Of a stretch of DNA of 64,000 bases, positions 323 through 18,438 are shown piece after piece (within the stretch, counting starts at the first letter, position 1; every line of letters starts with the position of its first letter). The DNA is taken from positions 3,708,001 through 3,772,000 of the forward strand of contig NZ_CP077093.1 in the NCBI RefSeq assembly GCF_014268755.2. The letters are read 5' to 3'. The position numbers and the translations under genes are program-made. The notes beneath the pieces are model-generated. The model did no database searches. It was not told the DNA's origin and saw nothing but the letters and a program-made list of their open reading frames with translations. This stretch comes from Pseudomonas vanderleydeniana (lineage in GTDB: Bacteria > Pseudomonadota > Gammaproteobacteria > Pseudomonadales > Pseudomonadaceae).

Positions 323-2536
323 TCAGTACCGGGCGTCCACGGGTTTCTTGTCCTTCGGCCAGTCCCTGACCTTGCCGGCAAAGTCAGGCCGGGGCTTGTG
401 GCTGAAGTAGGCCGCCACATCCACCGCCTCCTGGTCGGTCAGGCCGCCCTGGCCGAGCGGGAAGTGATCCTTGAAGGCAATCGGCATGTTCTGCTTGACG
501 AAGGCGGCTGCGGTGTAGGTGCGCGCCATGCCCGCGCCGAGGTTGAAGGAATCGTCACCCCACAGTGGCGGATAGACCCATTTGCCGCTGGCGTTCCTGA
601 TGCCCTCGCCATCGTTGCCGTGGCACAGCGCACACTGCACGGCATAAAGCTTCTCGCCGTTCTCCAGGTTGGGCACGATGCTCGTGTCGATCTTGCCGAC
701 TCCACGACCCTCGACCTTGTCCGCCGGTCTGGTCTCGCGCTTCATCCAGTCGAAATAGGCCACCATCGCCTTCATTTCCGTGGACTCCAGCGGCAACGGC
801 TTTCCATTCATCGAGCGCAGGAAGCAGCCGTTGATCCGTTCCTCCAGGGAAATCACCCGACCGGCACGGGGTGCATAGCTGGGAAAAAACGCCGAGACAC
901 CGACGTAGGGTGAACCATCGGCCACGGTGCCGGCGTTCAGGTGACAACTGGCGCAGTTGAGCGCATTGCCGACGTTGGCGGGCAGCAGCTCGTGGGTGTG
1001 GGTGTTGAGCTGTGCGCCCAGCACCAGTTGCCCGGCATTCGGCTCCTTGAGCAGATCGGCCAGGCGAGGTGTTTCGAACGGTCGATTGTCCTGAGTCCGC
1101 ACATCGAGGCGTTTGCGCATATCGGCGACCAGAGTCGGACGAATCGCCTGCACCACCGAATTGCCCCAGGCCCGGCGAGTGAAGTTGAGAATGTCGGTGA
1201 TTTCCTGATCACTGAGCCGCGCGAACGACGGCATGGTCAATCCCCGTGCGTGGCTGGCCGTCTGCGCCGAGCGCCAGCCGGTGAGCGTGATATGCACCAG
1301 GGTGGACGGATCTTCGGACCGCAACACCGGATTGCCCGCCAGCGGCGGGAACACGCCATGGACCCCGGCGCCGTCCGAGCGATGGCAGTCGGCGCAGAAC
1401 TGCTGGTAGCCCAGGCCGCCCCGGGAGGTCAGCAAGTCCACGGGCAGGGCGCCCGCTGAGCTGGCCGAGACCGGCGTGATAGCGGGCACCGGCCCTTGGA
1501 CGACCTGCAAGGGCTGGTCATGTTCGGAAGCGGGCAGCGACTTCAGGTACAGGCCTACCGCCCGCAGGTCCTGGTCATCCATGTACTGGGTACTGTGCTG
1601 CACCACGTCGACCATGTTGCCGGACACCGTGCCATGGCTGTTGCGCCCGGTCTTGAGCATCTCGGCGGTCTGCTCGGGCGTCCACAGGTTGCGCAGGCTG
1701 AGGGCGCGCCAGCCTTCCACGGTTTCCCCGGCAAGGAAGTGGCTGCCGTGCCTGCCGGCTTCGGACAGGGTTTTCTCCTGGAAACCGATGCCGCGGGGCG
1801 TATGGCAGGCCCCGCAGTGCCCCAGCCCCTGGACGATATAGGCCCCGCGGTTCCAGGCATCACTCTGTTCGGGGTTGGCGGTGAACACCTGGTCGTCGAG
1901 GAACATCCAGTTCCACATCGACAGGCCCCAGCGCTGGTTGAACGGGAACCCCATCTCCAGCGGCCGGTTCGGTTGGCGAACCGGACTGACGCCCTCCATC
2001 AGGTAGGCATACAGCGCGTGCATGTCCTCGTTGGTGATTCTGGCATAGGAGGGGTAGGGCATGGCCGGATACAGGTTATGCCCATCGGCCGCGACGCCCT
2101 TGCGCATGGCGCGATCGAACTGCTCGAAGGAGTAGCGCCCGATACCCGTCTCGTCGTCGGGGGTGATGTTGGTCGAGTACAGCACGCCAAATGGGGTTTC
2201 CAGGGCCAAGCCACCGGCCATGGGCTTACGTTTGTCGCTGGCGGTGTGACAGGCCACGCAATCGCCCAGGCGGGCGATGTACCGGCCGCGCTCCACCAGT
2301 CGACGGGTATCACCGTCGAGGTCGGCCGCATAATTGGCGGGCAGGTCATCGATGATCGCAGGGGCAAGGGCGTTGTCTTGCCCAGGCGCCTTGCTCGCCA
2401 CCGCGTTTGTAGTTGCCACGCTGACCAACAAGGCGGTCACGGCCAGGAACAGGGCGCGCGGCGAATAAGTTGTCATGTCCATGTCAGGAACGGAATCCAT
2501 AAAGCCAAAGGTGTCGACGAGGTGCGCACTGGGCAC
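323..2536 (-). CDS. Pentaheme cytochrome c: AdhB-like triheme part fused to a TsdA-like diheme part
   Basis: Predicted periplasmic electron-transfer protein. Five CxxCH heme sites are visible, numbered from the GTG start: 93-97, 241-245, 381-385, 528-532 and 635-639. The first three, with spacing and motifs such as GDCVACHTA and GHCGACHTPRG, match the triheme cytochrome subunit of membrane-bound alcohol/aldose dehydrogenases. The last two (NCASCHLNAG, then CALCHGNDG and YPPLWGDDSFN) match thiosulfate dehydrogenase TsdA. Cys571 in INGCFLRSMNG lies where TsdA has its cysteine heme ligand. Start is uncertain: the GTG at 2536 has the best Shine-Dalgarno (AAGGG, 9 nt upstream), but the signal-peptide-like stretch begins at Met21 (2476), so a shorter product is possible. 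No dehydrogenase subunit is adjacent. Substrate is inferred only. Confidence 0.85.
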   Translation of the reverse strand: MPSAHLVDTFGFMDSVPDMDMTTYSPRALFLAVTALLVSVATTNAVASKAPGQDNALAPAIIDDLPANYAADLDGDTRRLVERGRYIARLGDCVACHTASDKRKPMAGGLALETPFGVLYSTNITPDDETGIGRYSFEQFDRAMRKGVAADGHNLYPAMPYPSYARITNEDMHALYAYLMEGVSPVRQPNRPLEMGFPFNQRWGLSMWNWMFLDDQVFTANPEQSDAWNRGAYIVQGLGHCGACHTPRGIGFQEKTLSEAGRHGSHFLAGETVEGWRALSLRNLWTPEQTAEMLKTGRNSHGTVSGNMVDVVQHSTQYMDDQDLRAVGLYLKSLPASEHDQPLQVVQGPVPAITPVSASSAGALPVDLLTSRGGLGYQQFCADCHRSDGAGVHGVFPPLAGNPVLRSEDPSTLVHITLTGWRSAQTASHARGLTMPSFARLSDQEITDILNFTRRAWGNSVVQAIRPTLVADMRKRLDVRTQDNRPFETPRLADLLKEPNAGQLVLGAQLNTHTHELLPANVGNALNCASCHLNAGTVADGSPYVGVSAFFPSYAPRAGRVISLEERINGCFLRSMNGKPLPLESTEMKAMVAYFDWMKRETRPADKVEGRGVGKIDTSIVPNLENGEKLYAVQCALCHGNDGEGIRNASGKWVYPPLWGDDSFNLGAGMARTYTAAAFVKQNMPIAFKDHFPLGQGGLTDQEAVDVAAYFSHKPRPDFAGKVRDWPKDKKPVDARY

Positions 2537-6082: not shown

Positions 6083-7450
6083 ATGACTGCACCACACCCT
6101 GAGCTATCCCCTGAGCTCAAGCCCACGCTGAGCGTTCCCGATGTCGTCGCCATCACCGTCTCCTCGGTGACGCCCGCCAGCTCCGTATTTGTCATTGCGC
6201 CGTTCGCGATCGCCCAGGCCGGTACCGGGGTGATCTGGGCGTTCATTCTCGGCGGCGTGCTCGCGCTGATGTTCGCGCTTTGCTACGCCGAGCTGGGCCG
6301 GGCGCACAGCGCCGCCGGCGGCGAGTACGTGTTCGCCAAGCGCGTGTTTGGCGGCCTGGCCGGTTACGCCACGTTCCTGACCGTGCTGGCCATGCTGCTC
6401 TTCATTCCGCCGGTGCTGGCCACCGGCGCCGCGACCTATCTCAACGCGGCGCTGGGCACCCAGTTCGACGGCCAGACCGTCGCCCTGGTGATCGTGGCCC
6501 TGAGTTATCTGCTTGGTATCCTCAACATCAAGCTCAATGCCTGGGTCACCGGCAGTTGCCTGCTCCTTGAGGTGGCGGCGCTGATGGTTATCGTGGTGCT
6601 GGGCTTCGGACATGCCCAGCAACCGGTCAGTAGCCTGCTCAACCCGGTGATGCTCGACAAGGGCGTTCTGCACGCGGCGCCGTGGGCGCTGGTCATCGGT
6701 GCCGTGGGCACCGCGCTGTTCTCCTTCAACGGCTATGGTGGCGCGGTGCTGCTCGCCGAGGACATGAAGTGCGGTGGGCGGGGCATCGCCAAGGCCGTCA
6801 TGTGGTCGCTGGTGCTGGTGGTGAGCATCGAGCTGGTTCCGCTGATTGCCTTGCTGGTCGGGGCCCCGTCGCTGGAAAAGATGCTGGCGAGCCCGGACCC
6901 CATCGGCTACCTGCTGACGGCCCACGGCAACGAAACGCTGTCCCGGCTGGTCAGTGCAGGGATCTTCCTGTCGGTGTTCAACGCCATCATCGCCCTGGTG
7001 ATCCAGATCGGGCGAGTGATCTACAGCAGCGGGCGTGACGAGCTGTGGATGCCGAAACTGAATCGCGCCTTCACCCGCATCCATCCCAGATGGGATTCGC
7101 CATGGCTGGCGACGCTGTTCCTGGCGGTGCCTTCGGCGGCCTTGACCTTCAGCTCCAACCTGGCGGAACTCACGTCATTCACCGTGCTGCTGATCCTGTG
7201 CGTCTACCTGGTGGTTGGCCTGTGCGCGCTGTTCAGCCGCGTACTGCGTCGTGACCGCGAGCACCCGTACCGGATGCCGCTGTGGCCGCTGCCGGCGATG
7301 GCGGCCGTGATGGGCGCGGGGTATCTGCTGGTTACGTTGCTGGGTAGTGCGTCTGCCCGGGATATCTTCATCATTCTGGGTATCCTGCTCAGCTCCATGG
7401 TGCTCTATGGCACCTACGGCAAGTTGAGCCCGGCTTTCCAGAAACTTTAA
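6083..7450 (+). CDS. APC-superfamily amino acid/amine permease
   Basis: 455 residues with about 12 hydrophobic spans. The N-terminal motif VPDVVAITVSSVTPASSVFVI is a permissive form of the APC TM1 unwound segment. ELGRAHSAAGGEYVFAKRVF corresponds to the conserved TM2-loop-TM3 motif. GAGG lies upstream of ATG 6083. The permease is 12 nt from the P1 aminopeptidase start, so it likely imports a substrate for, or product of, that enzyme, such as a beta-amino acid or small amide. Specificity is inferred from context only. Confidence 0.88.
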   Translation: MTAPHPELSPELKPTLSVPDVVAITVSSVTPASSVFVIAPFAIAQAGTGVIWAFILGGVLALMFALCYAELGRAHSAAGGEYVFAKRVFGGLAGYATFLTVLAMLLFIPPVLATGAATYLNAALGTQFDGQTVALVIVALSYLLGILNIKLNAWVTGSCLLLEVAALMVIVVLGFGHAQQPVSSLLNPVMLDKGVLHAAPWALVIGAVGTALFSFNGYGGAVLLAEDMKCGGRGIAKAVMWSLVLVVSIELVPLIALLVGAPSLEKMLASPDPIGYLLTAHGNETLSRLVSAGIFLSVFNAIIALVIQIGRVIYSSGRDELWMPKLNRAFTRIHPRWDSPWLATLFLAVPSAALTFSSNLAELTSFTVLLILCVYLVVGLCALFSRVLRRDREHPYRMPLWPLPAMAAVMGAGYLLVTLLGSASARDIFIILGILLSSMVLYGTYGKLSPAFQKL

Positions 7451-7462
7451 GCGAGAGAAACA

Positions 7463-8566
7463 ATGCGAGCACGCGACTTCGGTATCACCCTGGGCCTTGG
7501 CAAGCCAGGCCCTCACAATGCAATCACCGACGTAGCGGGCGTGCGGGTCGGCCATGCCACGCTGGACAAGGTCCACGACGGCAAACCCGTGCGCACCGGT
7601 GTCAGTATCATCGAGCCACGTGCTGGCGCCGCACGCTATGAGCCATGCTTCGCCGGTTGCCATGTGCTCAACGGCAATGGCGATGCCACGGGCCTTGAGT
7701 GGATCCGCGAAGCGGGCCTGCTGACAACGCCCATTGCCACCACCAACACCCACAGTGTCGGCGTGGTGCGCGACGCACTGATCGCCCATGAACACGCGAC
7801 CCTGGCCGATCCGTCGGTCTATTGGTGCATGCCGGTGGTGATGGAGACCTACGATGGGGTGCTGAACGACATCTGGGGCCAGCATGTGAATGGCGAGCTG
7901 GTGCACCAAGCGCTGGCGGCGGCGGTCTCCGGGCCCGTGGCAGAGGGGGCCGTGGGTGGCGGTACCGGCATGATCTGCCACGAGTTCAAGGGCGGAATTG
8001 GTAGCGCCTCGCGGGAATTGCCGGCGGAGCAGGGTGGCTGGACAGTCGGGGCCTTTGTTCAGGCCAACCACGGGCGGCGTCGTGAGCTACGGGTCGACGG
8101 CTATCCCGTTGGCCGGGTACTCCAGGAGTTGCCTTCGCCCTTTGCAGAGCAAGATACCCCGGGCATGGGCTCGATCGTGGTGGTATTGGCCACCGATGCA
8201 CCGTTACTGCCGCACCAATGCCAGCGCCTGGCGCAGCGTGCCTCGGTGGGCATCGCCCGTACAGGCGGGGGCACGGAAGATTCGAGTGGCGACATTTTCC
8301 TGGCCTTTTCGACCGGAAACACGGGATTGGCGCCAGCGGATTACAACCGGCGTGATCTGCCGAGAACAGCGCAGGTTGCCATGGTCAACAACGATCATAT
8401 TTCGCCGCTGTTCGCGGCGGCGGCCGAGGCGGTGGAGGAGGCCATTATCAATGCGCTGCTGGCGGGGCGCTCGATGAGGGCAGGGGATGGGCGAGAGGTG
8501 CCGGCCCTTACAGGTCAACGCTTGAGCAAGGCTTTGGAAGCAATGGGATGGCAGGCTAGGGGCTAA
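7463..8566 (+). CDS. P1-family (DmpA-type) aminopeptidase
   Basis: 367 residues, full length for DmpA/BapA-type N-terminal-nucleophile hydrolases. These self-cleave before a serine that becomes the nucleophile. The cleavage motif is GMGSIVVVLATDAPL (Gly236-Ser237). Other conserved blocks are ITDVAGVRVGH, TGVSII, GGGTGM, TGGGTEDSSGDIFLAFS and MVNNDHISPLF. Known members hydrolyse D-Ala or beta-amino acid N-terminal peptides, amides and esters. No signal peptide. It forms an operon with the permease and ends at a strong terminator. Confidence 0.92.
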   Translation: MRARDFGITLGLGKPGPHNAITDVAGVRVGHATLDKVHDGKPVRTGVSIIEPRAGAARYEPCFAGCHVLNGNGDATGLEWIREAGLLTTPIATTNTHSVGVVRDALIAHEHATLADPSVYWCMPVVMETYDGVLNDIWGQHVNGELVHQALAAAVSGPVAEGAVGGGTGMICHEFKGGIGSASRELPAEQGGWTVGAFVQANHGRRRELRVDGYPVGRVLQELPSPFAEQDTPGMGSIVVVLATDAPLLPHQCQRLAQRASVGIARTGGGTEDSSGDIFLAFSTGNTGLAPADYNRRDLPRTAQVAMVNNDHISPLFAAAAEAVEEAIINALLAGRSMRAGDGREVPALTGQRLSKALEAMGWQARG

Positions 8567-8611
8567 CGGAAGCGACCTCCACGACAAAAGCATGATCGAT
8601 ACCCTCCGGCG

Positions 8612-8642
8612 GCCCCTGGTTCTTCAGATCCAGGGGCTTTTT
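8612..8642 (+). terminator. Rho-independent terminator
   Basis: Perfect 8-bp stem GCCCCTGG/CCAGGGGC with a 10-nt loop, followed by TTTTTC. It closes the permease-peptidase operon and isolates the next locus transcriptionally. Confidence 0.85.
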
Positions 8643-8759
8643 CGTCCTGAACAGGCTGAATCTGGATAGTGGCAATCTCATATTAACTTTCAGGTTTTTC
8701 TTACTTCTCCTCGACAGAATTCACAATTTCAAAAACCTGTCTGTAGGACTGTTGCCTAA

Positions 8760-8775
8760 ACTCGTACAGACGAGT
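8760..8775. promoter_or_regulatory. 16-bp inverted repeat ahead of the 21-codon ORF
   Basis: ACTCGT-ACAG-ACGAGT, six-base perfect arms, lies 73 nt before the small ORF in an AT-rich promoter-like stretch. Size and symmetry resemble TetR-family operators. No TetR gene is in this locus, so any regulator would act from elsewhere. Confidence 0.5.
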
Positions 8776-8848
8776 ATGTTCTTAACGAAATGTTACTCAG
8801 CGTCACCCCGCAGATTTTCAAAACAAAAATACTGAAAAGGGAAAGAGC

Positions 8849-8914
8849 ATGAGCCACGTTTATTTGCAGATCGACAGCCCTGCGCCGCACTTCCTCGGCG
8901 GCCCCGCCCCTTAG
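8849..8914 (+). CDS. Predicted 21-residue peptide, candidate precursor
   Basis: The ORF runs ATG 8849 to TAG 8912-8914. AAAGGG lies 7 nt upstream, a better ribosome binding site than most genes here have. The peptide opens MSHVYLQIDS and ends HFLGGPAP, with the tripeptide PAP occurring twice. It has Tyr5, two His and five Pro, and no Cys or Lys. It precedes the glycosyltransferase by 217 nt on the same strand. Size and position beside a radical SAM enzyme recall precursor peptides such as PqqA, but the PqqA Glu-x3-Tyr motif is absent. It could instead be a leader ORF. Translation is predicted, not shown. Confidence 0.5.
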   Translation: MSHVYLQIDSPAPHFLGGPAP

Positions 8915-9131
8915 CCACCCGCGCAACATTCCATCGGCTGAACAGGATGATGGCTAATAGCAGCCAAGGGAGGCGCTCGCCCTGGAATTATTATCTGGAT
9001 TGGCACGAGCCTTCGACTCGATGACACCGGGATGACAAAAAGTCATTTCGCAGCGTCGTGCACTCTTAAAAAAGCTGATCACTTTAGTCCGTGAAGATCA
9101 ATACACTTCTATTGATTCGAGAGGTATTGTC

Positions 9132-11786
9132 ATGCCTGCTGGAGCGATATTCATATCATTCGACGCTGTTGCAGTATCGGGCATCACTGTCGAAGCGTTG
9201 AAATTGGCGAAACATCTCTTGCAAAAGGGAATTTCCTCGCACCTTGACCTGGGTTATGAAATAAAAGTTGATAAAGGCAATTTCAAGAAACCCTACGACC
9301 ATGAAAGAAATATCTATCGAGATGTCTTCAATCTGGTGCGGATCGAGGATATCGACACCGTGCCTTACTACAACGTGGACTTTATCGAGTACTCGCACAA
9401 CATCCTGATTGCGCAAAAGGCCCAGGTATCCCGGGAAGAGCAACAGCACCTGCTCAAGGCCATCGGAGAGTCGGCCCAAGCCTTGTCCCTGCGGATCGTC
9501 GAACTGTGGGAGCAGCTCGATATCCGGCATGTCATCGTGGAGAACGCCACGCTGCCGGAAAACATCATCTACACCCAGGCGCTGTACCTGGCCATCGAAC
9601 ACTATGGCAACCGACACGGGCTGGGCCGTTTTGTCATCTGGCGTGACCATGACTTGATGTGGAGCAGCGAAAAGACCGTGATGAAATACGGTCCCGAGCC
9701 CTATCCCCACGCGATCAAGCCGGTCCCTTCACCTCATATCACCTATGTCACCCTCAATGAACATCTCAAGGACAAGCTCGAACACTGGTGCGATCATCAG
9801 GTGCAGATCGAGGTGCGCAAGAACACCTATGATTTCAGTGGCCAGGGCCGCTACCGCAACATCAAGGAAAGCCTGGATATTCGTGACAGCGACCTGTTGA
9901 TCGCCCGCACCACGCGAATCATTCCGCAAAAGCGCCTGGATCGCGATATCCACCTGCTGCAGCGGCTGAACCAACGCCTCGCCGAGGACGGCATCCGGCG
10001 CCGGGTGTACCTGGCACTGGCAGGCGACCCCGAGGAGCATCCGGGGTATTACACCCAATTGAACCGGTTGGCCCGTGAACTGGAGGTCGAAGCCTATATC
10101 AAGTTCGTTGGCGCCCTGCCCCATGACTATATGTCGTCGGATAAGGAGACCATTACCATCGAGGATCTCTATCACTCCTGTGATCTCGTTTCATTCCTGA
10201 CTTCCTGGGGCTATGACAGTTATGGCAATCCCGTAGGAGAGGCTATCAGCAGTCAGCGTTGCTATATCGCCAGTCACTATGAGTACTACCATGAGGTATA
10301 TGGCCAGCATGGTTTCGAGGCTCCGATCATGGCGATCTCGGAAGAACATGATGGTTTGCCCGACGAGAACTTCATTGCCGAAGTCTACCGACTGTTAAAT
10401 GACGAGACGCTGAGGACTCAGATCGCTCGGCGAAACTTTTCCATTGGCCAGCGCGTGCTCTCCAATACGCTAATGGACATGCTCGACTTGAGTTTTTCTG
10501 GAGGAACTATGCGTGATACTGTTTTTGTCTCGGTGGTACTGCCGCTCTATAACGAAAGCAATCGAATCGATGTCGTGCTCGATTCGCTGTTCACTCAGCA
10601 AACCCATGACAATCTGATTACCCATGCCAGTTATGAACTGATTATCGTCGATAACAATTCGACCGACGACTCGGTGGCAAAGATCAACGCGTTCAAACAG
10701 CGCAATCCGTCCCTGGACATCCATGTGATCCAGGAGCACATCCAGGGCGTTTCTTCCGCCCGCAAGCGCGGCATGGACTATGCCTCGTTGCGTTCGAAGG
10801 AGCGGGATATCCGCCTGGGGCTCAATAACCGGCACTACATCGCCTCCGCCGACGCCGACTGCACCGTCGACCCGTATTGGCTGCACGCGCTGATCGAAAA
10901 GATGATCACCGACAACGGTGACCTGGGCACCTGCAACTATTACTACAACGAGGCGCATTTCCGGCAGCGACCGAATCTGTACAACGAGATTCAGAAGACC
11001 CTGCGCTGCCGTGAAATGTCCTTCTCGCTGTTCGGCGGTTTTCCGGATGGCAAGGGTTTTGCGGTCGAGCGCCGACTCTACGACCTGGTCGGCGGCATCG
11101 AGATTTTCTACCAGCTGGACAAGGGCCGTTTCGTCGAACACCTCTCGGACGACTGGGACTTCGGCATTCGGGTCATCGCCTGGGGCGGCAAGCCGGTCTA
11201 TGCCCACGAGTCGCGAATCGAGATCAACAGCCGGCGGGTGGACACCATTCTCGACGAGGTGATCACCGGCAATGCCTACGGCCAGGACGGGATCATTATC
11301 ATGAAGGATGTGCGTCCGGAGGTCGAAGTGCAGGCTCCGACGCTACGCGATACCACGCCAGCACAATCGCAACAGGCCTGGGAGTACTCGATCAAGGACT
11401 ATGTGCCGAAGAACATCGTGCTGCCGGCGCTGCTCAATCCGCACATCCTGCTGGAAGACCAGGCCGTACGGGCGTTCTTCGGCGAATCGGTGGCAGACCG
11501 CCTGTACCGGCGCATCCACGAGATCAAACAGCAGTCGCGGGTGATCGACTTCAAGCCGATCCATGCCTACAAGACCCCGTCCTATCGCCTGTACTTCGAG
11601 TTCCGCGAGGAAATCTTCAGCGCCCTGCGCCGCGCAGTGGGCGAAGACATCGGCTACCCGCCGCCATTGCCGGCCTGCTTCGACCGGGTCCAGCCCGAGG
11701 ACTTCGAGCGCTTCGTCTACTACTTCGCCGAAGACCGCGAGTCCGGTGAGGCCCACAACTATTTTGCCAACGGGGGAGTGTTCTGA
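9132..11786 (+). CDS. Two-domain glycosyltransferase (GT4-like + GT2-like fusion)
   Basis: 884 residues. Residues 1 to about 455 resemble a GT-B fold GT4 enzyme, with TRIIPQKRLDRDIHLLQRLN around 260-285. Residues 462 to about 700 are a GT2 domain: VSVVLPLYNESNRIDVVLDS, IIVDNNSTDDS, and a DxD-type motif in ASADADCTVD near residue 575. The C-terminal 180 residues are unassigned. ATG 9132 has GAGAGG upstream. No signal peptide or membrane span is seen, so it acts in the cytoplasm. An in-frame ATG at 10509 (Met460) has its own GGAGG, exactly at the domain junction. The radical SAM start overlaps the stop by 1 nt. Confidence 0.85.
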   Translation: MPAGAIFISFDAVAVSGITVEALKLAKHLLQKGISSHLDLGYEIKVDKGNFKKPYDHERNIYRDVFNLVRIEDIDTVPYYNVDFIEYSHNILIAQKAQVSREEQQHLLKAIGESAQALSLRIVELWEQLDIRHVIVENATLPENIIYTQALYLAIEHYGNRHGLGRFVIWRDHDLMWSSEKTVMKYGPEPYPHAIKPVPSPHITYVTLNEHLKDKLEHWCDHQVQIEVRKNTYDFSGQGRYRNIKESLDIRDSDLLIARTTRIIPQKRLDRDIHLLQRLNQRLAEDGIRRRVYLALAGDPEEHPGYYTQLNRLARELEVEAYIKFVGALPHDYMSSDKETITIEDLYHSCDLVSFLTSWGYDSYGNPVGEAISSQRCYIASHYEYYHEVYGQHGFEAPIMAISEEHDGLPDENFIAEVYRLLNDETLRTQIARRNFSIGQRVLSNTLMDMLDLSFSGGTMRDTVFVSVVLPLYNESNRIDVVLDSLFTQQTHDNLITHASYELIIVDNNSTDDSVAKINAFKQRNPSLDIHVIQEHIQGVSSARKRGMDYASLRSKERDIRLGLNNRHYIASADADCTVDPYWLHALIEKMITDNGDLGTCNYYYNEAHFRQRPNLYNEIQKTLRCREMSFSLFGGFPDGKGFAVERRLYDLVGGIEIFYQLDKGRFVEHLSDDWDFGIRVIAWGGKPVYAHESRIEINSRRVDTILDEVITGNAYGQDGIIIMKDVRPEVEVQAPTLRDTTPAQSQQAWEYSIKDYVPKNIVLPALLNPHILLEDQAVRAFFGESVADRLYRRIHEIKQQSRVIDFKPIHAYKTPSYRLYFEFREEIFSALRRAVGEDIGYPPPLPACFDRVQPEDFERFVYYFAEDRESGEAHNYFANGGVF

Positions 11787-13225
11787 TGAACGGCGAAGCC
11801 TTGCACTCACTGCACGATATCGATCCGAACTATCCGGTACCGCGGGTCCACGAATTCCTCGCGCGGCCGGACAACCGCGACTTGCTGGAATACGTGTTCA
11901 ACGATCCGTTCGGCTGCCATGTGTTTCCCGGTGATGTTCCCGGCTATCCCTTGCCGTCATTCTTCGCGGACATGGACCAGGAGATCCGCCAGGCCCGGCA
12001 GATCCATCTGTGGGCCTATATCCCGACCTGTCGCTACCGCTGCCATTTCTGCCAGTACCCAACGGTGATCCTCAATCCCAAGGCAGCCTCATCCCAGGTC
12101 GTATTTCGCGATGTGGTCGACTACAACATCAAGGAAGCCGCCCTGTGGCTGGAGAAGGTGCCGAGCCTGGCCCGGGCCGAGGTCGGCGAGTTCAACATCT
12201 TCGGTGGCACGCCCTCGCTGCTGCCGGAATCGGAGCTGCGCCGCTTGATGGCGTTCTACCGGGAACACTTCAATTTCTCGGCCGCGACCCTGCGTTTCGA
12301 GGGCGAGCCGGGCACGCTGAACAAGCAATACCTGTCGCTGCTCAAGGAGCTGGGCTTCACCAAGATCAGCTTCGGTGCGCAGTCCTTCGACGATCGCATC
12401 ATTGCCGCCTGCGGCCGCATGCACTCGGCCGAGGAGTGTGTGGAAACCATCCATCATGCCCGCTCCATTGGCCTCGACTGGGTCAGTGTCGACCTGATCT
12501 ACGGCATGCTCGGCCAGAGCGTCGACGATGTGAAGTACGACATGGAGAAGTCCCTGGAACTGGAATTGTCCCATGTGGTGATCAGCAAGCTGCACATGGA
12601 AGAGTTCATGAAGACCCGTACCGGCGTGTCCGGCGAGAAGCAGAGCCACTGGCAGCGCAAGGGCCTGATCAGCATGAACGACATGACCTTCCCGGGCCTG
12701 GGCAAGCAGTACCAGATGCGTGAACTGGTGGAGCAGTACCTGGCGCCCAGCTATCGCGAGCACCCGACCATGTACTTCCACCAGAACCATCTGCCGGCGG
12801 AAAAGTGGAAGGGACTGATCACCAACCTCGAAACCCAGTACCCCGAGGTGGCGATCGGCCTGGGCGGCAGTTCCAAATGCACCCGCGCCGAAGCGATCAA
12901 CATCACCGGCTACGCCAAGTACAAGCAGGCGCTGGACGAAGGCCGCCTGCCCATCGATGAAAGCCGCGGCGTCTCGCCGCTGCAGCGTGAAGTGAACGCG
13001 TTCAAGATGGCTCTTTCGACCCTGGTACCGGTGGACGACCAGGTGTTCGGCCAGCGTTTCGCAGGACGCAGTTATCACGACAACCCAATCATCAGCCAGA
13101 CCCTCAAGGCCCTGGTGGACAAGGCGCTGGTCAGCGTCGAAGGCGATCTGGTGAGACTGACGCCCAATGGCGTCACCCTGGTCGAAGCCATCATCAATAC
13201 CCAGTTCATGACCCCCGAGGCTTGA
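11786..13225 (+). CDS. HemN-like radical SAM protein
   Basis: 479 residues. The 4Fe-4S motif is TCRYRCHFCQYP (Cys82, Cys86, Cys89), followed by the SAM-binding FGGTPSLLP and the HemN-type signature FTKISFGAQSFDDRII. The C-terminal part resembles the HemN C-terminal domain. Relatives include coproporphyrinogen dehydrogenases, but also class C radical SAM methylases and cyclopropanases of natural-product pathways that bind two SAM molecules. Context (glycosyltransferase, P450, exporter, no heme genes) favours a biosynthetic role over HemN or HemW. The start overlaps the glycosyltransferase stop (TGATG). Confidence 0.88.
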   Translation: MNGEALHSLHDIDPNYPVPRVHEFLARPDNRDLLEYVFNDPFGCHVFPGDVPGYPLPSFFADMDQEIRQARQIHLWAYIPTCRYRCHFCQYPTVILNPKAASSQVVFRDVVDYNIKEAALWLEKVPSLARAEVGEFNIFGGTPSLLPESELRRLMAFYREHFNFSAATLRFEGEPGTLNKQYLSLLKELGFTKISFGAQSFDDRIIAACGRMHSAEECVETIHHARSIGLDWVSVDLIYGMLGQSVDDVKYDMEKSLELELSHVVISKLHMEEFMKTRTGVSGEKQSHWQRKGLISMNDMTFPGLGKQYQMRELVEQYLAPSYREHPTMYFHQNHLPAEKWKGLITNLETQYPEVAIGLGGSSKCTRAEAINITGYAKYKQALDEGRLPIDESRGVSPLQREVNAFKMALSTLVPVDDQVFGQRFAGRSYHDNPIISQTLKALVDKALVSVEGDLVRLTPNGVTLVEAIINTQFMTPEA

Positions 13226-13236
13226 GGAGCGCGTCG

Positions 13237-14043
13237 ATGTCACAGCACAACAGTACAACCGCACCGGTGTTCAGCCTGCACTACATCGCCATCGATACCG
13301 AGGCGGGGGTGACACCGGAACAGTTCGAGACCTTCGTGCGCGAAAAGGGCGTGCACATTCCCTGCTATCCGGGCTGGAGCTGGACCCTGCTGCGCGGGCT
13401 ACGGGGCGAGCGGGCAGGGCAGTACCTGCTGCTGTTCGAAATCGCCAGTGCCGAGCAGCGTGACCGGTATGTCAGCGCCGATGGCAACAAGACCGAGCTG
13501 GCCCGCCAATTCTGGCGTGAGCGGTCGCAGGCCCTGGATATTCTCGGTGAATGGAAACGCTACGGTACCTACGCCGAACTGCCGACGCTTTTCACCGACT
13601 ACCGGCTGCTGGCCGAGAACCGCAAGAGCACGGTAGCGCCGGGCCCACGTTACCAGGAGCGGGCAGGGCAGCCACCGATCGCCCGGGTGATCGGCATCCA
13701 CAACCTGGCGCTGCGTGCGGATGTCCAGGCGCAGACGTTCGAAACCTTCATCGCCGAGAACCACCACCGTATCGAGGACTACCCGGACTGGAAGTTTCAT
13801 CTGCTCAAGGGTGAGCGCGGCAATCGCCTGGACCAGTACGTGGTGATGATGGAGATCGCCAGCCTCGAGGCGCTGGATGTGTTCTACCCCGAGCCGGATA
13901 TCGCCACCGACCAGGCGGCGATATTCGCCCGGGCCCATCGCGACACCAAGCAGATGTACGAGGAGTGGAAGCAGTTGGCATCGTTCTCCGGATCGCCGCA
14001 GATCTACACCGACTACCTGTCGGTGGCGCAGAGCCTGGGCTGA
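13237..14043 (+). CDS. Tandem dimeric alpha/beta-barrel (NIPSNAP/ABM-like) protein, copy 1
   Basis: 268 residues from ATG 13237 with GAGGAG 7 nt upstream; an in-frame TTG 15 nt earlier lacks a site. The protein is an internal duplication. Residues about 10-125 and 145-265 share QFETF, YPxW, LLxGxRGxR, QYxxxxEIAS and an EWK...TDY ending. This alternation of strands and helices suggests ferredoxin-like barrel domains of the NIPSNAP/antibiotic-monooxygenase type. Such domains may oxidise or cyclise small molecules, or act as non-catalytic partners. A paralogue lies at 15393. Catalytic residues cannot be named. Confidence 0.75.
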   Translation: MSQHNSTTAPVFSLHYIAIDTEAGVTPEQFETFVREKGVHIPCYPGWSWTLLRGLRGERAGQYLLLFEIASAEQRDRYVSADGNKTELARQFWRERSQALDILGEWKRYGTYAELPTLFTDYRLLAENRKSTVAPGPRYQERAGQPPIARVIGIHNLALRADVQAQTFETFIAENHHRIEDYPDWKFHLLKGERGNRLDQYVVMMEIASLEALDVFYPEPDIATDQAAIFARAHRDTKQMYEEWKQLASFSGSPQIYTDYLSVAQSLG

Positions 14044-14166
14044 GCGGAGTGGGGCGGGCGAATCGTTCCGCCCGTGAATGGACGCGGTGGCCAGGATGGC
14101 CACCTTGAGGTGTTTGCGGCAACGGTACCGTTGCGGTGCCGCGCCGACCACAAAGGGGATAGCGCC

Positions 14167-15351
14167 TTGACGACTCAAGTGCTCGGTTCACACATGGCTG
14201 GCAACCTGCGCCAACAGCAGGCCACCCGCCGCATCTTTTTTCTCGCCGGCTTGGGCATGTCCGCCTGGGCGCCGCTGATTCCCTTCGTCAAGGCCCGGCT
14301 GGGCATCGGCGACGGCACCCTGGGCCTGCTGCTGTTCTGTATCGCCGCCGGCTCCATGCTGGTGATGCCCTTTACCGGCCGGGCGCTTGCCCGGTTCGGC
14401 TGCCGAGCCCTGATCCTGGTCTGTGCCACGCTGTTCTGCGGGGTACTGCCGTTCATGCTGTATGCCAGCGCGATACCGGAGATCGCCCTGGCGCTGTTGC
14501 TGTTTGGCGCGGTCAACGGCCTGCTCGATGTATCGATGAACGCCCAGGCAGTGATCGTCGAACGCGACAGCGGGCAAGCGAAAATGTCCGGTTTCCATGG
14601 TTTCTACAGCATTGGCAGCGTGGCCGGGGCAGGCGGTGTCAGCCTGATGCTGTGGGCGGGGCTGGAGCCTTTGCAGGCGATCCTGCTGGTGGTGCTGCTG
14701 ATTGCCGTGCTGACGATGCAGGCCTGCGCGCATCTGCTGGGTCGACGGCAGCCGGAGCCAGGTGAGACTTCTGGACTGTTGCAGGCGCTGGCCCAGCCGA
14801 GCCTGCTGTTTATCGCACTGCTGTGCTTTTTCATCTTCATGATCGAAGGAGCAATGCTGGACTGGTCAGCGGTATTCCTGCACAGCGAACGTGGCATGGA
14901 CAAGAGCCACGCCGGTTTCGGCTTCACCCTCTACGCACTGGCCGTAGCCCTGTGCCGGCTTGGCGGCGATCGCCTGGTCAACGCCGTAGGCCATCAACGC
15001 ATGCTGGTGGCCGGTGCCGGCTGCGCCGCGCTTGGCCTGTTGCTGATCGTGTCGATCGATCTGCCGGCGGTGGCACTGGGCGGCTTCGTCCTGGCCGGCA
15101 TCGGTCTTTCCAATATCGTGCCGATCCTGTTCAGCACTGCCGGCAACCACCCGCGGGTGCCCTCGGGCATGGCTCTGTCGGCCGTGACCCTGATCGGCTA
15201 CAGCGGCCTGCTCAGCGGCCCGGCGCTGATCGGCCTGGTCGCCCGGCATGCCAGCCTGTCTGCAGCCTTTGCGGCCGGGGTGGTGATCATGCTGCTGGTC
15301 GGTGCCAGCGCCCGGCGTATCACAGGCAAGCAACCCAAGGCTACGCGCTGA
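14167..15351 (+). CDS. MFS transporter (YbjJ/fucose-permease-like)
   Basis: 394 residues from the TTG at 14167, which has AAGGGG 8 nt upstream; ATG 14194 is the alternative and lacks a site. Twelve hydrophobic spans are present. GRALARFGCRALILVC matches the MFS A-type loop and SGFHGFYSIGSVAGAG the YbjJ-like TM5 region. It lies between two paralogous barrel genes. A role in export of, or self-protection from, the locus product is inferred. Confidence 0.85.
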   Translation: MTTQVLGSHMAGNLRQQQATRRIFFLAGLGMSAWAPLIPFVKARLGIGDGTLGLLLFCIAAGSMLVMPFTGRALARFGCRALILVCATLFCGVLPFMLYASAIPEIALALLLFGAVNGLLDVSMNAQAVIVERDSGQAKMSGFHGFYSIGSVAGAGGVSLMLWAGLEPLQAILLVVLLIAVLTMQACAHLLGRRQPEPGETSGLLQALAQPSLLFIALLCFFIFMIEGAMLDWSAVFLHSERGMDKSHAGFGFTLYALAVALCRLGGDRLVNAVGHQRMLVAGAGCAALGLLLIVSIDLPAVALGGFVLAGIGLSNIVPILFSTAGNHPRVPSGMALSAVTLIGYSGLLSGPALIGLVARHASLSAAFAAGVVIMLLVGASARRITGKQPKATR

Positions 15352-15392
15352 CGGTCTGTTTCGTCCAAACGTTGTCCATCAAGGGAGTCCCC

Positions 15393-16190
15393 ATGAATCA
15401 AGAATCCACTGCGGTATTCAGCCTGCACTACATCGGCCTCAACCTGAAAAAGGGCGTAACGGCCGAGGATTTCGAGGCGTTCGTGCGCCAGCGTGGCGTT
15501 GCCATCCCGGCCTATCCCGGCTGGCGCTGGACCCTGCTCAAGGGCCTGCGCGGTGAGCGGCAGAACCAGTACCTGATGCTGTTCGAGGCGCCCAGCGCCG
15601 AACAGTACGCCCACTATATTGACAGCAACGGCGACCAGACCGCCCATGCCCGTGAGTTCTGGCAACAGCAGGACGAGGCGCTGGCACTGATCGCCGAGTG
15701 GAAAACCTTCTCGACCTATGCTGAGCTGCCAACGATCTTCTCCACCTATTCACTGCTGGCAGAAAACACCCAAAGCTCCCTGGCCGAGGGCCCCAACTAT
15801 CGCGCCGCAACCAGCCAGAAACCGGTAGCGCGGGTGGTGGGCATCCATAACCTGGCGCTGCGCTCCGGGGTGTCGGCGCAAATGTTCGAGGATTTCATCA
15901 CCGGCAATATCCAGCGTATCGAAGACTACCCGGGCTGGAAGTTCCACATGCTCAAGGGGCAGGGTGGTAATCGCCTGGATCAATACGCAGTGATGCTGGA
16001 GATCGAGAGCCTGGAGTCGCTCAATGCCTTCCACCCGGATCTGGACGTGTCGACGGAAAAGGCACTCACCTTCGTCCGTGAGCACCAGGAGAGCGAGCGC
16101 ATGTACGAGGAATGGCGGCAACTGGCATCTTTCTCCGGTGCGCCGCAGGTGTACACCGACTACATCACCATCGCCGGGAATGGTGACTGA
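15393..16190 (+). CDS. Tandem dimeric alpha/beta-barrel (NIPSNAP/ABM-like) protein, copy 2
   Basis: 265 residues; AAGGGAG lies 5 nt before ATG 15393. It aligns end to end with the product of 13237-14043 (both begin FSLHYI after a short lead and end QxYTDYxxxA). Like that protein it contains two copies of the barrel domain, so the locus encodes four domain copies. The pair could assemble as a heteromeric complex. A hairpin at 16200-16232 follows it. Function is unassigned. Confidence 0.75.
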   Translation: MNQESTAVFSLHYIGLNLKKGVTAEDFEAFVRQRGVAIPAYPGWRWTLLKGLRGERQNQYLMLFEAPSAEQYAHYIDSNGDQTAHAREFWQQQDEALALIAEWKTFSTYAELPTIFSTYSLLAENTQSSLAEGPNYRAATSQKPVARVVGIHNLALRSGVSAQMFEDFITGNIQRIEDYPGWKFHMLKGQGGNRLDQYAVMLEIESLESLNAFHPDLDVSTEKALTFVREHQESERMYEEWRQLASFSGAPQVYTDYITIAGNGD

Positions 16191-16199
16191 GCAGGCCAA

Positions 16200-16232
16200 G
16201 CCCCGACACCCGAATCGTTGGGTGATCGGGGC
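16200..16232 (+). terminator. Hairpin after barrel gene 2
   Basis: GCCCCGACACCC pairs with GGGTGATCGGGGC (one bulged base) around an 8-nt loop. There is no T-run, so termination is probably partial or Rho-assisted; the P450 downstream may still be reached by read-through. Confidence 0.55.
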
Positions 16233-16310
16233 CTGAATGCATCAGAAAGCTCTTCCACAACACCCGGATCAGCGAGTTTTGAAATCATGCCCGTCCTATC
16301 GTAAGGTGAC

Positions 16311-16358
16311 TGAACAAGCTGAAAGCGCGTAGCGCCTGAGCTGAACTTGTCGCAGCGC
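16311..16358. repeat. Imperfect ~47-bp direct repeat, copy A
   Basis: Begins TGAACAAGCTGAAAGCGC and continues with AGCGC, CTGAGC, GAA and TTG blocks. A second copy at 18461-18509 matches with a few substitutions and small indels. The unit is itself partly palindromic. The two copies bracket the P450 and the orphan membrane gene. Confidence 0.6.
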
Positions 16359-16366
16359 GAGGGACC

Positions 16367-17644
16367 ATGCTCGAAGCCAATCCGAATTGCCCCATCCGTC
16401 GTCGGCTGGCCCATCTGCCGTGGGTCGGTGATAACCGTGCGGGCGCGCGCCACTGGCTGGAGATCCAGCGCGACCCACTGGCCTGGCTGCAGAACATGCA
16501 CGCCAGGCAGCCGGACGTCGCCGTCATGCGCATGGGGCCGCAACGTGTCTGGTGCCTGTTCCATCCGCAAGCGGTGCACGAGCTGATGGTCGAGCATCGC
16601 GACGACCTGCGCCGCTGGGCACCGGCACTGTGCATGCTCAAGCAATGGAACGGGCGCAGTTTCATGATGCGTGAAGGCGAGCCGGCCCAGGCACAGCGCA
16701 AGGCGGTACGCCCGCACATCACGGCACCGGCAGCCAGTGATGTGCGCCACCTGGCCACGCAATGGGCAGAGCGGATAGAGGAGGGGCGCGAGTATGATCT
16801 CGACCTGGAGATGGCCGCGTTCAGCGCCACCCTCAGTGGTCATGCCCTGTTCGAGGTAGACCTGGAGCCTTCGGCCTACCGGATCGCCAAGGCGGTTCGC
16901 CTGTTGTCACGGGTGGCGCTGCTGGAGATGTCCACCGGACTGCCGTTGGGACACTGGTTCCCGAGCAAGCTTTGCCCGCGCAAACGCTGGGCGCTGGGAC
17001 AGTTGCGGGCCGTGGTGGAGGAGGTGGCGCAGCAGTCGCCCAGGCCTCTGGTCGAGTTGCGTGATGAACTCTGTACTTTGCTGATGGCCTCGCACCAGTC
17101 GACAGGCGTCACCCTGACCTGGTGTTTGCTGCTGTTGGCGCAGCGTCCCGAACTGTGCGCACGGCTGAGAGCCGAGCTGGAACCCGTCGACTGGCCGGCC
17201 ATCCGTTCGGTCAGTGACCTGCGCAACTGTCCCTTGCTGAGGGCAGTGCTACAGGAGTGCCTGCGCCTTTACCCACCGGCCTACGGCCTGGCGCCACGGC
17301 AGGTGACAGCAGACATCGAAGTGTCGGGGCATTCACTCAAGCGTGGCGACGTGGTCATGGTGTCCAGCTGGATCACCCATCGGGATGAACGCTGGTTCGA
17401 GGCGCCCCTGGAGTTTCGCCCGGAACGTTTCCTGGACTCGGCCACATGGCCGCGTGGCGCCTATTTTCCGTTCGGCCTGGGCGACCGTTCCTGCCCGGGA
17501 ACAGCGATGGCGATGATCGATCTGGCGGCAGCGCTGGCTTACTGGGTGGAGCATTGGGACATTGTGCACGACGGCGAGCTGGCGCCACGGGGGTGGTTCT
17601 CCCTGCGACCGCAGCGGGCTCGGGTGCGTTTCGTTCGACGGTGA
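16367..17644 (+). CDS. Cytochrome P450
   Basis: 425 residues. The heme loop is FGLGDRSCPG with thiolate Cys376. The K-helix ExxR is in LQECLRLYPP and the PERF motif is in FRPERFLD. The I-helix motif, usually AGxxT, reads ASHQST, so the glycine is replaced. ATG 16367 has GAGGG upstream. No membrane anchor, as expected for soluble bacterial P450s. No ferredoxin or reductase gene lies nearby. Co-direction with the radical SAM locus suggests a tailoring hydroxylase, but a hairpin and repeat A separate them. Confidence 0.9.
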   Translation: MLEANPNCPIRRRLAHLPWVGDNRAGARHWLEIQRDPLAWLQNMHARQPDVAVMRMGPQRVWCLFHPQAVHELMVEHRDDLRRWAPALCMLKQWNGRSFMMREGEPAQAQRKAVRPHITAPAASDVRHLATQWAERIEEGREYDLDLEMAAFSATLSGHALFEVDLEPSAYRIAKAVRLLSRVALLEMSTGLPLGHWFPSKLCPRKRWALGQLRAVVEEVAQQSPRPLVELRDELCTLLMASHQSTGVTLTWCLLLLAQRPELCARLRAELEPVDWPAIRSVSDLRNCPLLRAVLQECLRLYPPAYGLAPRQVTADIEVSGHSLKRGDVVMVSSWITHRDERWFEAPLEFRPERFLDSATWPRGAYFPFGLGDRSCPGTAMAMIDLAAALAYWVEHWDIVHDGELAPRGWFSLRPQRARVRFVRR

Positions 17645-17655
17645 GCCAGCTGTAA

Positions 17656-18438
17656 TCAATCTATCTTCTGGGCTTCAGTACTCTGCTGCACAACAGCCTT
17701 ATCGTCCTCTTTGGCGAGCACTTCGACGCTGTATTCTTTCAAGGGAATGATCCTGGGGCGGCCATTTTCATAGAGGGCCAGCCTGGAGCCAGAGGCAGCC
17801 ACCAGAAAGCCTGAGGCAACAACTTTGTCGCCGTCCTTGACCACGTAACAGTGCATTTTCGCCTGCACTGAAAGGTCGCAACCCTGAGCAAAGATCTCGC
17901 GATTGCGCTTCAAGGTTTGATCGGCACCGTAATTGCCAATGGTCCCTGGAATAAGCATGACCGGCAGCATGATGAGCGGTATCAGCATCAACACGGTCGT
18001 GATGGCTGCAGAAAGCACAACAAGCCCACTGCTGAGTGCGACGTACCGATTGCGCGTGTATTTTTCGACCGTACTCTTTATCCGAGCATTTTTTTCGAGC
18101 TTCTTGATGACCACCAGCTCAACGGAGAGCGCCAGGATGAATCCGGCGATGGACAGCCAGACAAACGGATTGCGCACGATGCCGGACCAGTTGCCAAGCG
18201 ACTCGATCAGGGCCACGTAGGCGAACATGAAATAATCCCGGGCTTCAGCCTCGAACAGCCCAGAGGGAATGCCGAGACCGCGCAGATAGCGCTGCCAGTA
18301 AATCAACCCAGTGACATACGGCGCGGCATAACCGACAAAGCCAAGAAACGGCAGCGCGAGAGCCCAAGGGAATTGGCTGGTGGGCTTGGTAACAGAGACG
18401 GCAGGCGCAGCCGTATCGATCTTTTCTTCAGCGCTCAT
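17656..18438 (-). CDS. Hypothetical inner-membrane protein
   Basis: 260 residues from ATG 18438, with AAAGGA 6 nt upstream. Hydrophobic spans fall near residues 25-50, 70-85, 90-112 and 130-165, followed by a soluble C-terminal domain of about 90 residues containing CDLSVQAKMHCYVV. I recognise no family. It is convergent with the P450 and lies beside the dif site, a typical place for lineage-specific genes. Confidence 0.7.
   Translation of the reverse strand: MSAEEKIDTAAPAVSVTKPTSQFPWALALPFLGFVGYAAPYVTGLIYWQRYLRGLGIPSGLFEAEARDYFMFAYVALIESLGNWSGIVRNPFVWLSIAGFILALSVELVVIKKLEKNARIKSTVEKYTRNRYVALSSGLVVLSAAITTVLMLIPLIMLPVMLIPGTIGNYGADQTLKRNREIFAQGCDLSVQAKMHCYVVKDGDKVVASGFLVAASGSRLALYENGRPRIIPLKEYSVEVLAKEDDKAVVQQSTEAQKID

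Follow-up and report, generated by a model that had tools for sequence, protein, structure and literature searches.

What would a pseudomonad make with a fused glycosyltransferase, a radical S-adenosylmethionine (SAM) protein resembling HemN, two related barrel proteins and a transporter, and under what circumstances would it make it? The question is raised by a locus of Pseudomonas vanderleydeniana (single 7.03-Mb contig NZ_CP077093.1), in a window that here means the whole 64,000-nucleotide stretch analysed; all coordinates are positions in that window, and the operon genes are on its plus strand. The locus is probably an operon that has spread horizontally, makes a small glycoside of presumed chemistry for export and is switched on by trehalose. 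An initial annotation had proposed an undescribed small pathway lacking nonribosomal peptide synthetase (NRPS) or polyketide synthase (PKS) genes, composed of six co-directional genes and a 21-codon open reading frame (ORF). The six genes exist as described, and an undescribed pathway is supported by the recurrence of the gene set in other genomes, whereas neither the short ORF nor the cytochrome P450 belongs to the system. No paper describing the operon was found in the open-licence PMC literature, judged by title and the start of the abstract.

The strongest functional clue, absent from the initial annotation, lies in the leader. A palindromic 16-bp TreR-type operator, ACTCGTACAGACGAGT, occupies positions 8760-8775, between a -35-like TTGCCT (8752-8757) and a -10-like TATGTT (8775-8780), with a further half-site, GTCTGTA, at 8739. 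The two boxes, which lie upstream of the 21-codon ORF, are our own reading and fall below the threshold of the promoter scan. With up to two mismatches allowed, the operator occurs at two places in this genome: the first precedes the operon, and at the second, treB and treR enclose an inverted pair. The tre genes at the second place exceed the NCBIfam cut-offs for the trehalose phosphotransferase system (PTS) IIBC component, alpha,alpha-phosphotrehalase and the trehalose operon repressor. The operon thus has an operator in common with treB/treR of the same genome, as a TreR regulon would.

The same holds beyond this species. The two operator places recur in all four further cluster-bearing Pseudomonas, the second being treR-treB-treC in the three that were fetched, and the other five cluster genomes have the operator beside treB and treR, 9-10.4 kb from the radical SAM gene and correctly upstream of it. 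All 10 cluster-bearing genomes of the 398 Pseudomonas sampled therefore carry the 16-bp operator either before the operon or before a contiguous tre operon. Among 16 cluster-free Pseudomonas controls, 10 have no site, and the remaining six have one pair, in each case beside treB and treR. In six loci with contiguous tre genes (L023-L026, L051 and L054), treB and treC are upstream of the glycosyltransferase on the same strand, separated from it by a small EIIB-like gene (all six) and a PTS EI/HPr/EIIA fusion (typed in L023). An EIIB-like protein of about 100 amino acids (aa) closes the trehalose PTS operon in these pseudomonads (L023:6803-7111; L080 near 706-1023, minus strand).

In Duffyella, the order treR-treB-treC-GT-GT-rSAM-barrel-MFS-barrel (GT, glycosyltransferase; rSAM, radical SAM protein; MFS, major facilitator superfamily transporter) is present in both records viewed of the three found. 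E. coli-type TreR-like and CRP-like sites occur at 5 of 11 enterobacterial loci. In three Cedecea/Enterobacter loci (L037, L038 and L040), the TreR-like site has 2 mismatches in 14 positions (0 of 60 shuffles) and begins 18 bases after the CRP-like site, a spacing that is 19 bases at treB of L086 and L087; in Serratia (L039 and L041) these two sites show 3 and 0 mismatches (shuffles as good for TreR, 0 and 4 of 60). Upstream of the GT4 gene in Pseudochrobactrum (L062) stand a sugar ATP-binding cassette (ABC) transporter, a ThuA-domain gene and a Gfo/Idh/MocA gene, which is the make-up of thu trehalose operons; NCBIfam gives none of these genes a trehalose-specific name, and the GT2 and rSAM parts of the record look incomplete. 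The tre operons (treR-treB-treC) share the operator and promoter region and are contiguous with the cluster in six Pseudomonas loci and Duffyella, but consist of uptake and hydrolysis genes, whereas the genes of this operon look biosynthetic.

The position and sharing of the operator suggest that TreR controls the operon. E. coli TreR responds to trehalose 6-phosphate, according to a review (PMC7549927). If the Pseudomonas repressor answers to the same ligand, imported trehalose 6-phosphate would release it and the operon would be transcribed, so that growth on host trehalose would switch the operon on.

The resemblance to treB extends beyond the operator. Aligned locally with the 5' region of its own genome's treB, the leader scores above all 200 shuffles in 11 of 12 Pseudomonas loci, and in L020 and L015 the match continues about 80 bases into treB. 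Translated, the L020 leader is 40% identical to TreB in a 72-column alignment that reads through a stop (E 3e-8). The P. entomophila leader (L015) has an exact operator at -571, and window positions 8741-8902 align with it over the operator, promoter region, start codon and first 18 codons. The 21-codon ORF of the window (8849..8914, plus strand), which has a good ribosome-binding site, matches the P. entomophila relic at 10 of 21 positions (0 of 2000 shuffles) and TreB itself at 8 of 21 (1 of 2000 shuffles, or 15 of 2000 by local-alignment score). Because this homology with treB runs from operator to codons, the leader is, on these alignments, a captured treB 5' end, comprising the TreR-type operator, the promoter region (8739..8780, plus strand), the ribosome-binding site and the first 20 or so codons, now decayed. 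The capture may have come about by duplication, or by deletion of the remainder of a tre operon, with the coding stub decaying since.

A different form of control seems to apply in rhizobia, where the GT-rSAM pair is found on large plasmids (10 plasmid records). In Paraburkholderia phymatum STM815, the pair lies about 9 kb from nodU. RNA sequencing of nifA-mutant nodules is reported to give log2 changes of -4.98 for the GT gene (Bphy_7707) and -4.07 for the rSAM gene (Bphy_7706) (PMC8305402), and a value of -3.6 is reported for the GT gene in an rpoN mutant (PMC5979394). On pBPHY02 of this strain (L057:9332-13440), the pair adjoins a hemerythrin gene, BPHY_RS41080, which is listed as NifA-dependent too (-5.92; PMC8305402). 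Nine of 14 rhizobial-type loci, several of them close kin, have a sigma-54-like site matching at least 10 of 12 positions ahead of the pair, with 1-8 of 200 shuffles as good. In Sinorhizobium terangae (L028), a NifA-type palindrome at -484 from the GT gene stands 78 bases before a sigma-54-like site at -406 that matches 11 of 12 positions, a textbook arrangement.

Several observations weigh against the trehalose reading. The P. fragi leader (L027) is marginal, scoring 31 against 30 for the best shuffle, and its operator has 4 mismatches; the leader ORFs of L019 and L022 are unlike that of the window beyond the start region. Six of the 11 enterobacterial loci (L034, L043 and L046-L049) have no convincing TreR site, and no trehalose operator was found at the rhizobial and actinobacterial copies, which also lack the barrels and MFS. 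P. phymatum itself has no good sigma-54 site before the pair, so the NifA effect there may be indirect, and the trehalose level is described as unchanged in those nodules.

The alternative that survives best, with a chance approaching even, is that trehalose is only a cue, and that the product is host-directed or antimicrobial and contains no trehalose, the GT using other sugars. The promoter is a captured one, not native, and control in the rhizobial copies seems to be of another kind. In Streptococcus mutans, TreR affects mutacin genes, according to the same review (PMC7549927), and a trehalose regulator is thus likewise tied to natural-product output, although both the chemistry and the regulator wiring differ. 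Against this, linkage to trehalose genes recurs in Pseudomonas, in Duffyella and perhaps in Pseudochrobactrum, as would be less expected if trehalose were a mere host signal. Two roles of trehalose (or of its 6-phosphate) are about equally likely: it may also serve as a building block, or it may do no more than signal a trehalose-rich host. When the GT4 half was compared with solved TreT, only a mannosyltransferase came up, and weakly (E 0.09).

The biosynthetic nature of the operon is suggested by its enzymes and by how they recur. With the rSAM protein as query and one genome per species, 43 loci were obtained, and their members were recounted by tblastn. The GT is present in 41 of these, directly upstream of the rSAM gene (in L036, the GT2 half only); of the two loci without it, L055 starts inside the rSAM gene at a contig end (L020, a second contig of the same strain, TH31, carries the GT side), and L056 has 27% of the rSAM protein. 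Barrel 1 occurs in 29 loci, barrel 2 in 28, and an MFS gene with at least 80% coverage in 28; L027 retains a piece of it. The genes run GT-rSAM-barrel 1-MFS-barrel 2 except for losses in L027 and a single rearrangement, in Pseudoduganella flava (L036:8730-15759), where the GT4 half is behind barrel 2 and the GT2 half is kept before the rSAM gene. Barrel 1 is missing from 14 loci: ten from rhizobia, Paraburkholderia and Cupriavidus and two from actinobacteria, all twelve of which keep the GT-rSAM pair alone, together with L020 (contig end) and L056.

The hosts are Pseudomonas, Enterobacterales, rhizobia, Burkholderiales and Streptomyces relatives, and the flanking genes vary by lineage (25 locus maps), so that GT, rSAM, barrel and exporter genes recur together in differing genomic surroundings, which is one half of the test that the initial annotation had set. 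Distribution is sparse: the cluster is present in 10 of 398 Pseudomonas genomes, in all of which GT and barrel 1 flank the rSAM gene, and, among 369 gammaproteobacterial genomes drawn at class level, only in the window's own genome. For L053, the counts are 3 of 200 genomes in its family and 6 of 394 in its class, the query's genome being included in both. Decaying copies are found among L012, L054 (G080) and L020: Pseudomonas sp. KNUC1026 has an interrupted rSAM frame, and in TH31 the GT is split over three ORFs.

The GT (9132..11786; 884 aa) has a GT4-type half at about residues 1-457, a GT2-type half from about residue 460 and a conserved C-terminal extension. The two catalytic domains first proposed for it are borne out by Pfam to the extent that GT2 scores 78.5 bits and group 1 (GT4-type) 24.7 bits, just below the 26.4 cut-off. 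In a 15-row alignment, 14 of 15 checked residues are invariant and one is D/E, and identity to the actinobacterial copies is 49%. The halves are separate genes in Serratia, Kosakonia, Rhizobium jaguaris and Duffyella, among others, and both are retained when split. This enzyme would build the glycoside from nucleotide sugars, the HemN-like rSAM enzyme would modify it, and the MFS protein (14167..15351, starting at TTG 14167 or ATG 14194; identified by Pfam) would export it. A metagenomic protein of 780 aa (P0277) combines the same GT4 domain with a radical SAM domain unlike the HemN-like one, which gives this GT4 family a second pairing with radical SAM chemistry.

It is also possible, though unlikely, that the product is a cell-bound glycan, glycolipid or compatible solute that is not secreted, with the MFS protein an importer or unrelated. 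The GT4-type model nearest to the GT in NCBIfam is mannosylglucosylglycerate synthase (39 of 640 bits, far below the cut-off), and the rhizobial and actinobacterial copies do without an MFS gene. However, 28 of the 29 loci with barrels have the MFS gene flanked by the two barrel genes, and Pfam identifies no polymerase, flippase or ligase gene in the unit.

The rSAM protein (11786..13225; 479 aa) is HemN-like, as first described: it has a Pfam radical SAM domain (77.6 bits), and its structure model (mean pLDDT 90) matches HemN over the full length (TM 0.73/0.80). All HemN-type NCBIfam models score below their cut-offs, including the HemN equivalog (100.5 bits against 324.95). Like HemN (PDB 1olt), the oxygen-independent coproporphyrinogen III oxidase, it carries CxxxCxxC, but the active-site Y-x-H-x-P-x-C that HemN keeps is replaced by W-x-Y-I-P-T-C, and the fourth Cys is absent. 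Across 23 family rows, Trp is at the Tyr position in 23, Tyr is at the His position in 22 (Ser in one), and none has the fourth Cys. HemN function is rejected because the signature is replaced. The protein also differs from HemN in always adjoining a GT where testable. Two further HemN/HemW-like proteins in the genome, 27-28% identical to rSAM, are presumably HemN and HemW themselves. NocN (PDB 9p2u) is the second PDB sequence match for rSAM residues 1-225, found with a profile that included those two proteins. Class C radical SAM methylases and cyclopropanases, which also include NosN and Jaw5, are HemN-like too, but this operon has no thiopeptide, NRPS or PKS partner.

The two barrel proteins (13237..14043 and 15393..16190) are, as the initial annotation had them, a related pair, with 58% identity. 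The structure model of barrel 1 (mean pLDDT 85) has two ferredoxin-like domains, and its matches include coproheme decarboxylases and chlorite dismutases, so that the two-domain chlorite dismutase/HemQ barrel is present as a shared fold only, at low sequence identity. Scoring of 7,996 candidates yielded 104 database relatives, all at least 47% identical to the query, and the barrel family therefore looks closed. The pair may tailor, bind or sequester the glycoside. In the Kosakonia sacchari-type locus (L046:10001-12265), rSAM and barrel 1 are a single protein of 754 aa, and database cluster P0047 has the same length. A tetrapyrrole-related system, combining a HemN-like enzyme with chlorite dismutase/HemQ-like barrels, would account for the HemN fold and the barrel matches, but is very improbable.

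Least credible of all is a ribosomally synthesised and post-translationally modified peptide (RiPP) pathway, in which the 21-residue peptide would be modified by rSAM and then glycosylated: a short ORF with a good ribosome-binding site does precede the radical SAM gene, and some radical SAM peptides, mycofactocin among them, are glycosylated (the mycofactocin glycosyltransferase model matches the GT weakly, at 25.7 of 280 bits), but the ORF is homologous to the TreB N-terminus and diverges freely in the closest relatives, while the enzymes are 70-94% identical across Proteobacteria. Among the 37 leaders listed, that of the window included, no counterpart of the ORF was found outside Pseudomonas, and most relatives' leaders show nothing similar. 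The ORF, whose conservation was the other half of the test set by the initial annotation, is accordingly rejected as a RiPP precursor and is a treB relic by the leader alignments. The six proteins contain no leader-recognition, leader-peptidase or peptide-exporter Pfam domain, although a divergent recognition domain could be missed. Mycofactocin likewise pairs a radical SAM enzyme (MftC) with a glycosyltransferase (MftF), but the present operon has no precursor peptide, its rSAM is of the HemN type and its GT is a GT4+GT2 fusion.

The remaining features concern the limits of the unit. The ORF calls agree on the six co-directional genes, and the GT and rSAM ORFs overlap by ATGA at 11786. On the left, as first reported, a G+C-rich, terminator-like hairpin followed by a T-run is found at about 8612-8645 (plus strand); the fold z of 8600-8650 is -2.4, equalled by 5 of 200 shuffles, and the consensus terminator scan did not list it. 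On the right, a strong hairpin with no clear T-run (16197-16235, plus strand; fold z -5.2, 0 of 200 shuffles as good) follows barrel 2 and is the likely 3' end of the operon. The cytochrome P450 beyond it (16367..17644, plus strand) is one by Pfam, but its place in the enzyme set does not stand: it occurs in 1 of 43 loci and in 3 of 398 Pseudomonas genomes, two of which lack the cluster. Because it is rare at relative loci, present without the cluster and separated by the hairpin, it is judged to be a neighbour and is rejected as a pathway enzyme. The convergent ORF taken as the right limit is present at 17656-18438 (minus strand). An amino-acid permease and a family S58 peptidase lie immediately to the left of the operon (6167-8566); homologues also flank the copies in P. 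fuscovaginae (L014 and L016). Going by the best relatives, the Pseudomonas of the window stands near P. fuscovaginae and Pseudomonas sp. COR18.

A bolder proposal is offered only tentatively and is itself rather unlikely. The operon may define a new natural-product class, a radical-SAM-modified, probably trehalose-like glycoside from a mobile GT4-GT2/HemN-like module, made on contact with trehalose-rich hosts (insects, mushrooms and legume nodules, habits taken in part from record titles) and perhaps acting on the trehalose metabolism of host or competitor, for example as a trehalase inhibitor. Gammaproteobacteria would capture tre promoters for it, and rhizobia would keep it on symbiotic plasmids under nodule (NifA) control. 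In any case, the operon appears to be of a sugar-cued, NRPS/PKS-free biosynthetic kind, and its product could prove to be a new class.

A metabolic promoter captured whole can leave a decoy 'peptide ORF' that mimics a RiPP precursor, which is a warning for genome mining. The same two-enzyme core is present in pseudomonads, Enterobacterales, rhizobial plasmids and Streptomyces relatives, and the Paraburkholderia copy is already in published tables of NifA-dependent nodule genes, where no function is attached to it. For this orphan biosynthetic family, trehalose addition or treR deletion would be a cheap handle on the product.
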